A DNA stretch of 64,000 bases. Source: a virus. A model generated the notes under the pieces. That model saw nothing but the letters and a program-made list of their open reading frames with translations. It had not been told where the DNA came from and did not search any database. The position numbers and the translations under genes are program-made. Within the stretch, counting starts at the first letter, position 1, and every line of letters starts with the position of its first letter. The stretch covers positions 1 through 64,000 of the IMG/VR virus record IMGVR_UViG_3300031951_000126; one strand, given 5' to 3'. Of the stretch, positions 7,571 through 57,311 are shown one piece after another.

Positions 7571-7826
7571 CTTCTATTTTTTTAAGTTCGTTAAATTGTC
7601 CACCAAGCCAAAGGTACATATCCTTACCTGTAAGTTCATACAGTCGCTTATTAATCAACCTCATAAGGCTGTAATCTCTCTTGTAATCTCTAGATGGCTT
7701 GTACACACCCTTCTTTTTAGGGTATTTGGCGTCAGCCTTCAGCATTTTATGCCTTAGTTTCCGAAGGTGCTGTAACTCGGTCGATGTCGATGGAGTAGGA
7801 GGCAAGGATATCTGGATTCCGTTCAT
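7557..7826 (-). CDS. small basic protein of the replication block
   Basis: 89 residues, basic and mostly helical, with a Pro/Thr-rich N-terminus. Its start overlaps the end of the DnaA-like gene by 80 bp in another frame and its stop overlaps the next start by 14 bp. No motif recognised. Its position suggests an accessory replication role. Confidence 0.55.
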   Translation of the reverse strand: MNGIQISLPPTPSTSTELQHLRKLRHKMLKADAKYPKKKGVYKPSRDYKRDYSLMRLINKRLYELTGKDMYLWLGGQFNELKKIEDGQN

Positions 7827-8232
7827 TGAAAAAGTCTAATAAAAGTTCTTGTTTGGTTGGATCTAGGTCGGCAATGAAGTGACGTATTTTATTGCGGCGT
7901 ACCGCGTTGTATGAGTAATCACCCCTCACGGTTTTGATTGCGTGACAGACAGTTGAATGATCTTTGTTAACTGTTCTGGCAACCTCTGCTAAACTCTTGG
8001 TAGAGCAAACTTTTACAGCAGCCATGTATACATGGCGAGCCAAAACTATGTCAGCATAACGCTTATCACTCTTGATATCCGCAGTAACAACATTGAAGTG
8101 TTTGCTAACCTTTTCTAATATTTCATTTTCATGCGGATTATCTACCTTGTGTAGGTATTCGTAAATCTTCGTGAACTCCGCTCGTCTTGTAACCGGAACC
8201 ATGTCCACTAGGTCTTTGAATGTATATCTCAT
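7747..8232 (-). CDS. DnaA domain IV-like DNA-binding protein
   Basis: 161 residues. Residues about 36-103 match the C-terminal DNA-binding domain of the initiator DnaA, including the signature-like helix VNKDHSTVCHAIKTV (88-102), which corresponds to the DnaA-box-reading DHxTV motif. The ATPase domain of DnaA is absent. The protein could mark the phage origin, compete with host DnaA, or regulate transcription at DnaA-box-like sites. It lies downstream of SSB and primase-helicase genes, fitting a replication role. Confidence 0.8.
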   Translation of the reverse strand: MRYTFKDLVDMVPVTRRAEFTKIYEYLHKVDNPHENEILEKVSKHFNVVTADIKSDKRYADIVLARHVYMAAVKVCSTKSLAEVARTVNKDHSTVCHAIKTVRGDYSYNAVRRNKIRHFIADLDPTKQELLLDFFNERNPDILASYSIDIDRVTAPSETKA

Positions 8233-9017: not shown

Positions 9018-10958
9018 TTATTCCCAAGCCTCCTTGTATCCGTTTGGATGCTGGATATCCTCGTTCCATTCCTTGGCCTCCTTAGAGTCGGTCCAGTTTC
9101 TATTTGGTTTAATCGCAGAGGTCTTTGGTTCCTCAATAGCGGCCTGCACATATCTGCCGTCAATCGCCTGCTGTAGGTAATCAACCCCATCAAACGTAAA
9201 CCTGCGGGTATTCCTTTGCAACTGAAACTCAAAGAAGCCCTTTATACCCACGATCTTTTGTCGGCGGATCTTCTTACTGTGGAACTCGCAGATCGGGCTT
9301 TCTGGGGCTGTCTGAGCGAACGGACGGTGGTATATTAGGATGTTATCAGCCTTGTTGTTCCACATCGCACCGTCTGCAAGGTCAAATACCTCCGGACATG
9401 GGTAGTTGCCGTCATCACCCTTCCTCATCTTGTGAGGGTGGACCACGATGTCGAAGTATACGTTGTTCTTTCGTGCGAACCGGGTACAATCCGACAGGAA
9501 CGTCTCCAGGTACTTGTCGCTGCGTCCTCCTCCCTTCGTATAATCATTTGCCATTTGATTGAACGGGTCGATGACAACTCGCTCCACACCATGCTTGACG
9601 ATGAGGGTAAGGAATACCTCCTTAACGTATTCGGGAGTAGGGCTTACACTCTTGGGATAAACCATAAAGATGTGTTCCCCAATCATCTTGTACACCTTCA
9701 TGTACATATCGTATGACGGACGGTTAGGGTTGTTGGGTGTGCAGTCTTTCCCAAAATAGATCTCCACAAGGTCATGGTAGAACTGCTCCGCCGGTAATTC
9801 CTCAGGAGTAAATATGGCCACCTTCTCCCCGAATCTGACTATTCGGAACACCATCTCCCACTTCATGAACGACGACTTACCATAGTTCCCTATACCGGAA
9901 ACAATTGTTAAATCGCCCTTCACTCTTTTGAAGTGTTTGTCAAGTAGTGGAACACCCAGAGGTTGAGCTGCACGATATCCGTGTAAGTAAATGTCGGAAG
10001 CCTGCTCCATAACTTCTTCCGCATAAATCACGTCATTCGCCGCAATATTCTCCGCATCTTCTGCGGTAATTACAATGTCAACCTCCACTCGGTTAGTCTT
10101 ACTAACCAACTGATCCTTGGTAAACTCGGCTGTGTTCCATTGGTTCATATTGGCCCTGTATGCGCTACGAATAGCCTGTCTACACTCGCGTTGGCTGAAA
10201 CTAGCATCAGGCACAACGTAGGTCATCATCATGTTGTAACAGGTCTCCTCAAGCATCCCGAACCGGCAGCAGCTTGCAGCCAACTTGAACACAAAGTGAT
10301 TCCTTTCCCCCTCGCGGAACGCATCACCCTTTGATGTCATCCACGTAAGAAGGTTTTGGAATATCTTGTCGTCGTCGTTAATCGTTTCCGTAGTTGTGCT
10401 TTGGGGCAACCTTTTATCGGCCTTATTTACCGGCAACTTGGAGTAGACCTCTGCGTTCGGGTTGTAATAAAGCTCTGTGTCATACGACTCGAAGCAGAGG
10501 CGGGAAACATTACGGCCAGTCTTATCAATGTCTGGAAACTCCACCATTAAGGCATCAAAATGCTCTTTATGTTTTGTTTTCCATTCAATTTCGACCAAAG
10601 CCTTCAGCCCCTTTCCGGAAGGTGACACCCAAACAGCCGTGATGTAACTTATAAGTGACAATTCATTTCTCTTTTGGGCAATATTTGTCACATTATCGAA
10701 ATCAAGCACGATGTATCCGGAGTGTTCGACAAGTTCGGAGTCCTTTCTTTTGGAGAATGTGCCACTAAAACATACAGCGGGGAGTTTTTTCTTTAAATCG
10801 TCGGCCTCCTTCTTAGTCTTGGCTTCCCTCGCCTGTTCGACAAGTACCTTTGATTTTCCAGTCCGAATTCGTTCAAGTGCGCCCAGCACAGTAATTTGGT
10901 GTCCTTGCAGGTCGTTGAAGTCTTTGTAGATTGATACCTTACCATGTATTGTTGTCAT
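9018..10958 (-). CDS. primase-helicase (VirE_N/BT4734-like primase fused to DnaB-type helicase)
   Basis: 646 residues. The N-terminal ~170 resemble the VirE_N/BT4734-like domain of Bacteroidota replication proteins, with GYIVLDFDN (Asp86, Asp88 as likely metal ligands) and a WVSPSGKGLKALVEI strand. A helical linker (about 195-275) resembles a primase C-terminal segment. The C-terminal part is a RecA-fold helicase with Walker A SGIGNYGKSS (354-363), Walker B VVIDPF (461-466) and a VVHPH motif (506-510). It would prime and unwind DNA at the fork. The start overlaps the upstream replication gene by 20 bp. Confidence 0.85.
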   Translation of the reverse strand: MTTIHGKVSIYKDFNDLQGHQITVLGALERIRTGKSKVLVEQAREAKTKKEADDLKKKLPAVCFSGTFSKRKDSELVEHSGYIVLDFDNVTNIAQKRNELSLISYITAVWVSPSGKGLKALVEIEWKTKHKEHFDALMVEFPDIDKTGRNVSRLCFESYDTELYYNPNAEVYSKLPVNKADKRLPQSTTTETINDDDKIFQNLLTWMTSKGDAFREGERNHFVFKLAASCCRFGMLEETCYNMMMTYVVPDASFSQRECRQAIRSAYRANMNQWNTAEFTKDQLVSKTNRVEVDIVITAEDAENIAANDVIYAEEVMEQASDIYLHGYRAAQPLGVPLLDKHFKRVKGDLTIVSGIGNYGKSSFMKWEMVFRIVRFGEKVAIFTPEELPAEQFYHDLVEIYFGKDCTPNNPNRPSYDMYMKVYKMIGEHIFMVYPKSVSPTPEYVKEVFLTLIVKHGVERVVIDPFNQMANDYTKGGGRSDKYLETFLSDCTRFARKNNVYFDIVVHPHKMRKGDDGNYPCPEVFDLADGAMWNNKADNILIYHRPFAQTAPESPICEFHSKKIRRQKIVGIKGFFEFQLQRNTRRFTFDGVDYLQQAIDGRYVQAAIEEPKTSAIKPNRNWTDSKEAKEWNEDIQHPNGYKEAWE

Positions 10959-11580
10959 CTTGAATAGGTGTTTGTTTTATTGTTTTATTTTGTGTTTCGT
11001 CTTCCCATCTTCTGTCACGAAGGTATCGTACAGGGTCTTTCCAATACTTGGGTTCGCGACCCGATTTATGGTTACCCACGCCTTCTACAGCAAGTATGCG
11101 ATCCTCAGCAGAGAGTTTGTTCCATACAGTTAAGGTCTGTTTCTTATCCACCTTCTTGTTGTATGCTTGCCAAAAATCCTCAAAAGAGTATTTATATGTT
11201 ATTTCTTTTTTTGTATTATCTATATATGTAGTGGCGGGTTTTCGGATATCGGGTTTTCCGCTTTCCGTTAAACCGCTCTCGGTTGGCTCGTAGTAGACGA
11301 TGTAATTAAATCCCCTTGACAACCCATCATTACCAATTATACGCACCGAATGTATGTACCCTAAAAGCTCCAACTCGTCCCAAGCGCTAGATATTGAATC
11401 CTTACCATCTAGCGAGTAATCGGTCAATTTGCTTTTGTAAATAACCCAATCATGGGGGAGGGACAACAGAAATGACAATAGCCCCTTTGCTTTTAGGCTT
11501 ATTGACTTGTCCCTTAAAAATTCAGTAGGAACCATCGCAAAAGGCACGTTCCTGGTTTTAACAATTTGTCCTGTATTCAT
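10939..11580 (-). CDS. replication initiation-like protein with N-terminal helix-turn-helix
   Basis: 213 residues from the ATG at 11580. A longer form would need GTG at 11607 inside a terminator hairpin. The N-terminal ~90 residues (VPTEFLRDKSISLKAKGLLS... then AWDELELLGYI) have the winged-helix pattern of phage replication proteins of the DnaD/RepA type. The C-terminus carries a FEDFWQAYNKKVDKKQT segment typical of DnaD-like or helicase-loader proteins of Bacteroidota phages. Next comes the primase-helicase, so a loader or initiator role is likely. Translation starts only 12 nt after a strong terminator stem. Confidence 0.7.
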   Translation of the reverse strand: MNTGQIVKTRNVPFAMVPTEFLRDKSISLKAKGLLSFLLSLPHDWVIYKSKLTDYSLDGKDSISSAWDELELLGYIHSVRIIGNDGLSRGFNYIVYYEPTESGLTESGKPDIRKPATTYIDNTKKEITYKYSFEDFWQAYNKKVDKKQTLTVWNKLSAEDRILAVEGVGNHKSGREPKYWKDPVRYLRDRRWEDETQNKTIKQTPIQDDNNTW

Positions 11581-11616
11581 AAAATAAAAAAAGCTCGCAA
11601 GAACCACTTTGCGAGC
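11581..11616 (-). terminator. intrinsic terminator in the replication-operon leader
   Basis: On the minus strand, a perfect 8-bp stem (GCTCGCAA, 11616-11609; TTGCGAGC, 11600-11593) with loop AGTGGTTC is followed by TTTTTTTATTTT and then the ATG. Its position between promoter and first gene makes it an attenuator, or the 3' end of a small RNA with read-through into the operon. Confidence 0.8.
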
Positions 11617-11692
11617 CTTTAGGTTGGTAAGAGCAATTCATTACCTTCCAACCCTCGTTTACTGTGGTTCTTTAGCAAACGAGGAGTGAAAT
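11581..11692 (-). ncRNA. structured leader RNA with predicted loop-loop pairing (attenuator)
   Basis: A leader of about 112 nt from the 11699-11729 promoter. Order on the minus strand: hairpin 1 with an 8-bp stem (11684-11677/11660-11653), hairpin 2 (11653-11641 with 11630-11622), then the terminator hairpin (11616-11593). The loop of hairpin 1 contains AAGAACCAC (11672-11664), exactly complementary to GTGGTTCTT (11607-11599) in the terminator loop and upper stem. The pairing could stabilise a compact fold or, by invading the stem, prevent termination. The same plan occurs at 57020-57121. Confidence 0.7.
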
Positions 11693-44976: not shown

Positions 44977-45189
44977 ATGCAGCATGATATCAATCATACA
45001 GAGATGACAGGACAGGGATATGTAGATGGATTGGCGTCGGTTTTGTTAACCAGCTTCGCCGCCGTAGTTTCATGGCAAGAGCAGGCTGAATGGGCCTTCC
45101 GTATCTTCTCTCTATTCCTCGCTTGCACTGTGTCTATGGTGGTTCTTTACGGCCACTACAAGAAGAGCAAGAAAAAGCCTCGTTCCTAG
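44977..45189 (+). CDS. holin-like small membrane protein
   Basis: 70 residues with two hydrophobic segments (about 20-35 and 42-59) and a very basic C-terminus (HYKKSKKKPRS), the profile of a class II holin. It lies after the internal virion genes with its own promoter element. The lytic peptidase is 7 kb away next to another membrane protein, so which of the two is the holin is not settled. Confidence 0.55.
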   Translation: MQHDINHTEMTGQGYVDGLASVLLTSFAAVVSWQEQAEWAFRIFSLFLACTVSMVVLYGHYKKSKKKPRS

Positions 45190-45301: not shown

Positions 45302-45331
45302 CAAATATACAACAAATCTTAATTAATACAA
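45302..45331 (-). promoter_or_regulatory. leftward promoter in the gap after the holin-like gene
   Basis: Minus strand TTG (45331-45329), 19-nt spacer, TATATTTG (45309-45302). It opposes the late transcription direction. Confidence 0.6.
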
Positions 45332-56982: not shown

Positions 56983-57014
56983 TTGACTTCCGGAGTGTGA
57001 CCTCCATACATTTG
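56983..57014 (+). promoter_or_regulatory. rightward promoter of the small RNA
   Basis: TTTTGAC with TTG at 56983-56985, 21-nt spacer, TACATTTG (57007-57014). Confidence 0.75.
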
Positions 57015-57019
57015 TCCTG

Positions 57020-57121
57020 TTCTCACATTGCAGTGTCTGGTAGCAGTGCAATGTGGGAAGATGAGAAATCTAATTCTCAACTCAAAACGCCCTCGGACTA
57101 CCAGACGAGGGCTTTTTTTTT
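57020..57121 (+). ncRNA. small structured RNA with predicted loop-loop pairing
   Basis: A ~100-nt transcription unit opposite to its neighbours. Hairpin 1: a 12-bp stem (57021-57032/57047-57058, one G-U). Hairpin 2: TGAGAA/TTCTCA (57062-57067/57074-57079). Hairpin 3: terminator (57089-57095/57106-57112) and nine T. GTCTGGTAG in loop 1 (57035-57043) is exactly complementary to CTACCAGAC (57098-57106) in the terminator loop and first stem base. No ORF inside. The plan matches the leader at 11581-11692. A trans-acting sRNA or an RNA with a pseudoknot-like core are possible readings. Confidence 0.75.
57089..57121 (+). terminator. terminator of the small RNA
   Basis: A perfect 7-bp stem GCCCTCG/CGAGGGC with a 10-nt loop and nine T. 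Confidence 0.85.
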
Positions 57122-57311
57122 ACCCGTCCCCCATCCATCCGAATCTGCCTTGTCGGTGCAATAGGCCACACTTCATGCGAGAGTATGTTGGATCAGACAC
57201 CTGCCCCTATGCGGGGCGGAGATGTTTGTTTTTCACGGGGGGAGGCTTTTTCTTTTCTTCTCTTTAGGTTTCTTCTTGACTTGTTTCTTTTCTCTGTCTT
57301 TTCTTTTGAAA
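57122..57311. other. non-coding gap, nothing convincing
   Basis: This stretch contains a GCCCC/GGGGC hairpin near 57206-57224 and a pyrimidine-rich plus strand (57240-57305) beyond the end of ninB. No gene or promoter seen. Confidence 0.4.

Follow-up and report, generated by a model that had tools for sequence, protein, structure and literature searches.

Does the RNA in front of the replication genes of a Bacteroidota virus control the transcription of these genes, and do other phages use the same kind of RNA? This question is raised by a leader in a 64,000-nucleotide stretch of viral DNA, referred to here as the window, which is part of a 66.4-kb virus record (IMG/VR record IMGVR_UViG_3300031951_000126, positions 1 to 64,000). 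The leader appears to represent a hitherto undescribed RNA switch that acts on phage replication and is widespread in Bacteroidota viruses; its paired loops change in concert in many phages that are unrelated to one another. In the enterobacterial phages P1 and P4, the control of early genes by RNA is well known; no equivalent from Bacteroidota phages is described in Rfam or in the literature that was searched.

The replication leader and the free-standing unit

The leader lies on the minus strand at positions 11581-11692 and is arranged in the order promoter, hairpin 1, hairpin 2, intrinsic terminator, U-run, and initiator start codon. The promoter is of the Bacteroidota type (TTGAC-N-TATGTTTG, 11729-11699, minus strand), and its pattern, TTG-N17..23-TAnnTTTG, occurs at 26 sites in the genome compared with 7.8 expected from Markov-1 simulations. 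Hairpin 1 (11684-11653) is the 5' hairpin, with a stem of 11 bp, and its loop exposes the kissing segment AAGAACCAC (11672-11664), which contains the conserved core GAACCAC. Hairpin 2 (11652-11623), recognized by its fold, is followed by the intrinsic terminator hairpin (core GCTCGCAA[AGTGGTTC]TTGCGAGC, 11616-11593), whose apical loop and upper stem hold the kissing target GTGGTTCTT (11607-11599). A U7 tract (11592-11586), the letters AUUUU, and the ATG at 11580 complete the arrangement, and the 3' end of the kissing target is 18 nt upstream of this ATG. Hairpin 1 is defined by its fold and the terminator by both sequence and fold; both stems covary, that of hairpin 1 across 32 homologous leaders. 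The initial annotation had described two hairpins, a terminator with a T-run at the start codon, and an exact 9-nt complementarity between loop 1 and the terminator loop and upper stem. All of these are present, and AAGAACCAC is the exact 9-nt complement of GTGGTTCTT.

The leader is predicted to fold at -40.8 kcal/mol (z = -4.5), and none of 200 shuffled sequences was equally stable. The chance of a 9-nt match between two such loops is estimated at about 1e-4 per unit. Within the 66.4-kb record, the 9-nt word occurs in the leader and in one distant copy at 45139. A promoter-like site is also present at 45302 on the minus strand, inside the structural gene region, and the 60 nt that follow it fold at -19.3 kcal/mol without a terminator.

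The first gene of the operon (10939..11580, minus strand) encodes a RepO/DnaD-like replication initiator with an HTH_36 domain (phrog_270, "replication initiation protein", E 4.5e-19). The second (9018..10958, minus strand) encodes a primase/helicase with a BT4734-like N-terminal domain and PriCT-1 (phrog_18375). The same strand run also encodes a small protein (7747-8232, minus strand) that has the C-terminal DNA-binding domain of DnaA (PF08299, E 4e-18), and similar proteins are annotated near the replication genes of Cellulophaga and tooticki phages.

A second unit, at 57020-57121 on the plus strand, had been said to be built in the same way from different sequences, and this description is correct: its plan is that of the replication leader, its loop pair is GTCTGGTAG/CTACCAGAC, and its folding z-score is -6.3. 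The promoter (TTGAC-N-TACATTTG, 56983..57014), identified by the same pattern, precedes hairpin 1 (57020..57059), which is supported by the fold and by the alignment of relatives; this alignment also places the loop-1 kissing segment GTCTGGTAG (57035..57043). The terminator (57089..57112) carries the apical loop CTACCAGAC at 57098-57106 and is followed by a U tract (57113-57121). Among the relatives of this RNA (alignment A5), the stems are nearly constant and the loop code varies (GTCTGGTAG, GTCTGGTAC, GGCTGGCAC, GTCTGACGG, GTCTGGCTGG), with a complementary terminator loop each time.

This unit appears to stand alone, because a common open frame downstream of it is absent from the window and from seven of the eight sampled relatives, and because the divergent neighbour gene varies between phages. 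The term "free-standing" is therefore justified for these loci but not for relative L128, in which the same RNA is immediately followed by an ATG and a reading frame of about 81 codons. Additional, apparently free-standing units are found in two unrelated phages, G024 and G028 (GATGCAA; TTCGCAGT). The approximately 190 nt on the 3' side of the window RNA (57122-57310) are strongly conserved in relatives and have no common frame on the RNA strand; ESALSVQEANFIREYVGSG-like frames are broken in the window.

Covariation of the paired loops

Scanning for the initiator identified 79 loci, all of which were inspected for what lies upstream. The close relatives of the window leader use three loop codes (AAGAACCAC, AAGAGCAAC, and AAGAGTCAC), and the terminator loop always matches. 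In an alignment of 32 distinct homologous leaders (A1), the 7-bp loop-loop core GAACCAC/GTGGTTC is paired in all 32. Three of its seven pairs show compensatory changes (splits of 16/16, 17/15, and 31/1), and there are no one-sided changes. When the partner was shifted by one to three columns as a control, 35-46% of the cells, counted over the whole structure, could pair. The core is situated wholly within both loops, whereas the two outer A-U pairs of the original 9-nt match would have to reach into the terminator stem and persist in only 22-23 of the 32 leaders. Thus, the conserved part of the pairing is the 7-bp core.

The same behavior is seen in an unrelated leader family (alignment A3, eight distinct leaders), the sequence of which is unlike that of the window leader and which is without hairpin 2. 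All seven loop-loop pairs are kept in all eight members, two of them with compensatory changes, and the loop codes are GGGAAAC, GTGGAAC, and GGGGAAC. In both families, the U-run of the terminator adjoins the initiator start. The relatives of the free-standing RNA, which form the third alignment, covary as well. From these comparisons, the kissing structure of the leader can be considered nearly certain.

The stems of the three alignments contain 58 G-U pairs and no A-C mismatches, which indicates that selection acts on the RNA of the transcribed strand. This count bears on the idea that the hairpins function as DNA, as an origin or as a single-strand initiation or packaging site. Such a role would suit their position, close to both the initiator gene and a strand switch, but it is at odds with the stem substitutions and with the presence of both a promoter and a U-run. 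In the cumulative GC skew, no turning point marks out the units, and the skew is uninformative about the origin. A DNA function is considered highly improbable.

The loops and stems may also differ in their rate of change. Pairs with at least two Watson-Crick types make up 8 of 24 kissing pairs and 10 of 61 stem pairs, which is suggestive at best of loops that evolve faster than stems, as for immunity specificity. When 34 leaders were compared, pairing with the own partner was stronger than cross pairing (means of -10.2 and -2.6 kcal/mol; 0 of 20000 permutations), a comparison that is partly circular because many representatives were chosen for having a match. In three loci (L087, L100, and L109, the last a short contig; contigs 3300036399_000656, 3300005805_000090, and 3300033992_001693), a nearly identical leader stands before a different protein start, ATGCACAATCAATACTCAATCATCCC / ATGCATAATCAATATTC replacing the usual ATGAAYACAGGACA. 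This different start is initiator-like, so the RNA is a movable module that is exchanged independently of the initiator.

Recurrence of the design in other phages

The design is found before the replication operons of several isolated phages. The loop code is AGCATCCTAC in Tenacibaculum phage JQ, GTGAGACG in Flavobacterium phage tooticki6-1, GTGGAGG in Flavobacterium phage elemoF_6-3D, and GTACGAC in the Cellulophaga phages phi19:1 and phi10:1. Scans with three isolate-phage initiators yielded 40 distinct upstream regions, and the design is present in 17 of them, compared with one in the same-strand control, none in the reversed control, and four in the complemented control. Further loop codes (TAGTATG, TAGTGTG, GTGGCTT, GTGAAGA, and GTGCAG) were obtained by reading the upstream regions of distant initiator loci. 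The design was absent from the Bacteroides and Parabacteroides isolates that were inspected, in which the initiator lies within an operon, and it was not seen in Maribacter phage Panino.

Hairpin 2 is missing outside the family of the window leader. Consequently, the initial definition by three hairpins has to be given up, hairpin 2 being a feature of one family and not of the class. As judged by comparison, two parts are essential, the 5' hairpin and the terminator, and a "kissing" helix between their loops connects them. Some members are followed by antirepressor (ANT/AntA/Bro-N), HNH-endonuclease-like, or primase genes, so the class is not confined to replication initiators. At two loci (L363 and L384), antirepressor genes with AntA or Bro-N plus ANT/KilAC domains are downstream of the leader, as in the C4-ant arrangement of P1.

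Several side observations concern these phages. The kissing loops are skewed toward a GTGG/CCAC core even between unrelated families (GTGGTGG, GTGGAGG, GTGGAAC, GTGGCTT, and GTGGAATTC; GAACCAC in the window). In tooticki6-1, the U-run of a second unit (L192, 11641-11689, GTCGTCG/CGACGAC) lies near the beginning of an endonuclease gene. One contig of 99577 bases (3300046002_004363; L265 and L275) carries two homologues of the elemoF-type initiator, which differ from each other and are encoded at separate positions.

In several terminators, an internal motif, GGAGTAGAG-loop-CTCGAAAC, flanks the loop, and IMG/VR was searched with this motif while the loop was left free (any 6-10 nt). The search gave 44 matches, 23 of which have the outer stem and the U-run. 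In all 23, with eight distinct loops among them, the complement of the own loop occurs within the preceding 110 nt; it occurs in none of the 23 in each of two controls. A third control, complement without reversal, gave 12 of 23, a value that is inflated because CCACCAC is nearly mirror-symmetric. The same motif has 46 matches in 84,980 bacterial and archaeal species, none with the design, which therefore looks restricted to phages. An internal loop, GGAGTA/GAAA, is strongly conserved in the terminator hairpins of many flavophage leaders (L363, L365, and L370-L406); by eye, it resembles the sarcin-ricin type (AGUA/GAA) and may serve for contact with a protein or for a tertiary contact.

Exact-loop patterns in IMG/VR gave 30 matches to the leader loops, about half of them genuine leaders, and 15 to the free-standing loops, of which 4 are genuine; the remainder are chance matches, mostly in coding sequence. 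A loose descriptor applied to the whole isolate genomes of A+T-rich phages gave no excess (93 matches compared with 136, 104, and 86 in the controls), and an energy-weighted descriptor gave only a modest one. Since the raw counts show no excess, the signal rests on position, covariation, and the motif. Short loops can match accidentally, and the loose descriptor does yield many such matches. Still, chance complementarity as an explanation of the design is refuted by the covariation in three alignments and also by the outcome of the motif search, and its probability is negligible.

Database comparisons agree with an undescribed RNA. At gathering score, Rfam 15 has no family that matches the window or 25 related loci, apart from two tRNA genes in the flanks. 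At E<=10, nothing credible appears, the best sub-threshold result being a trpB motif with 24.3 bits against a cut-off of 59. BLASTN of the leader against phage records found no relative, and the design is undescribed within the open-access papers of one library. Classical attenuation by a leader peptide or a metabolite (riboswitch) would also place a terminator upstream of an operon. However, the aligned leaders have no conserved ATG or reading frame, and they have neither an aptamer core conserved beyond the paired segments nor an Rfam match, so this explanation is regarded as very improbable. The initial proposals of an undescribed RNA class and of a shared architecture without a shared sequence are well supported by the compensatory changes in three alignments, the many unrelated loops before replication operons, the motif search, and the Rfam result. 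Far from being peculiar to this virus, the architecture is found in many other phages.

A predicted attenuator and its relation to known RNA switches

The reading that best accommodates these observations is that the leader is a promoter-proximal RNA attenuator on early or replication genes (a probability of about 0.6). Sequence comparison establishes the layout of promoter, hairpin, and terminator, the loop-loop helix, the selection on the RNA strand, and the recurrence in unrelated phages; we infer that the terminator works and that the pairing changes read-through, in one direction or the other. The 5' hairpin would be transcribed first, and its loop would already be available when the terminator's apical loop is transcribed, immediately ahead of the 3' arm and the U-run. 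A loop-loop helix could thus form before or while the terminator closes, that is, at the moment of the stop/go decision. The fraction of polymerases that pass would set the expression of the initiator-primase operon, and each polymerase that stops would set free a compact transcript, about 110 nt long, whose two loops are complementary to each other. Such control may also time replication, as was initially proposed.

The pairing could also lead to refolding. Loop 1 could invade the terminator loop and the upper 3' arm, so that both hairpins open and transcription continues; the 9-nt match of the window does reach 2 nt into the 3' arm. Against such a refolding antiterminator, forcing the nested refold costs 6.8, 15.3, and 13.3 kcal/mol relative to the hairpin fold in three leaders, and only in phage JQ do the two folds have about the same energy. 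In addition, 9-10 of the 32 leaders lack the two invading pairs, whereas none lacks the loop-only core. This explanation is improbable. The favored shape is a kissing complex in which the terminator stays intact, because the nested refold is less stable in three of the four leaders and the core is inside both loops; kissing, therefore, need not disturb the terminator.

An alternative with somewhat better prospects, although still unlikely, is a stable phage sRNA that is folded by an intramolecular kissing helix and located here merely for early expression, with its target elsewhere (a host RNA, a protein decoy, or counter-defence). The loop-loop pairing could, indeed, merely build a stable RNA. 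The RNA begins with a 5'-end hairpin and finishes with a terminator, its core pairs are compatible with that terminator, and units without a downstream gene exist in two unrelated phage groups. Nevertheless, most of the members identified immediately precede early operons, and the U-run often abuts the start codon, a position that a free sRNA gene does not need.

Judging from the free-standing units, the terminated RNA may itself be a product, and the attenuator reading can be extended in this direction. The terminated RNA could offer its loops to the nascent leaders of other genome copies, which would provide dosage feedback in trans. In this tentative extension, which we hold to be possible but less than even in its odds, the RNAs would be homotypic "kissing attenuators", a class defined by architecture, and each terminated leader would be both a product and a trans-acting regulator of the transcripts of its own promoter. 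No integrase (PF00589) was found in the window record or in 12 relatives, records that may be incomplete; this fits expression control, and prophage immunity is not an obvious purpose.

By analogy, the logic of the predicted switch is nearest to that of P4 CI RNA and P1 c4 RNA; it resembles the known systems in how it would work and is not assigned to any of them. Termination in P4 is Rho-dependent. The C4 RNA of P1 and P7 shares a promoter with its target and acts at the ribosome-binding region, whereas the target here is the terminator loop; C4 (RF01695) gives no gathering-score match here. In P4, the structured CI leader, made from the replication-operon promoter, pairs within its own transcript, and this results in premature termination before the replication genes (PMC4825925). 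Likewise, the hairpin loop described here is complementary to a sequence in the same transcript between the RNA and the replication genes. However, CI RNA undergoes processing and has its role in prophage immunity. The leader described here, which is not known to be processed, has its target in the apical loop of an intrinsic terminator, and the search for an integrase was negative. P4 also has two targets, seqA upstream and seqC downstream of CI RNA, whereas a second target is absent here, the one further copy of the 9-nt word in the record being the distant one at 45139. The c4 RNA of P1 represses antirepressor synthesis (PMC8546580). Its loops regulate an early antirepressor gene, and antirepressor genes follow two of the present members (L363 and L384), with replication or other early genes after the rest.

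Plasmid systems provide further parallels. As in pT181-type attenuators, RNA pairing is predicted to decide termination before a replication initiator gene. The pT181 type, however, needs an antisense transcript from the opposite strand, and no countertranscript promoter is visible here; the opposite strand of either unit has no -7 element TAnnTTTG, which concerns this promoter type only. In the initiator pseudoknots of IncI-alpha, IncB, and IncL/M plasmids (repZ/repA), a leader hairpin loop pairs with a distant segment near the initiator start (references in PMC10724649). The partner of the leader loop is also next to the initiator start here, but it is the terminator loop, whereas the IncI-alpha-type pseudoknot switches translation, which is enhanced by the pairing and inhibited by an antisense RNA. 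For plasmid initiators, there was no Bacteroidota relative among the matches listed.

Sequence and covariance-model searches overlook a pseudoknot of this kind, in which a hairpin loop pairs with a terminator loop and the sequence drifts freely; it can be found through its architecture and covariation. If the RNAs are indeed homotypic kissing attenuators, the leader RNA would count genome copies during infection, and the loop pair would be a specificity code against cross-talk, both between units of the same phage and between co-infecting phages. The finding offers one testable switch at the replication decision in many Bacteroidota phages, including isolates with laboratory hosts (Flavobacterium, Cellulophaga, and Tenacibaculum).
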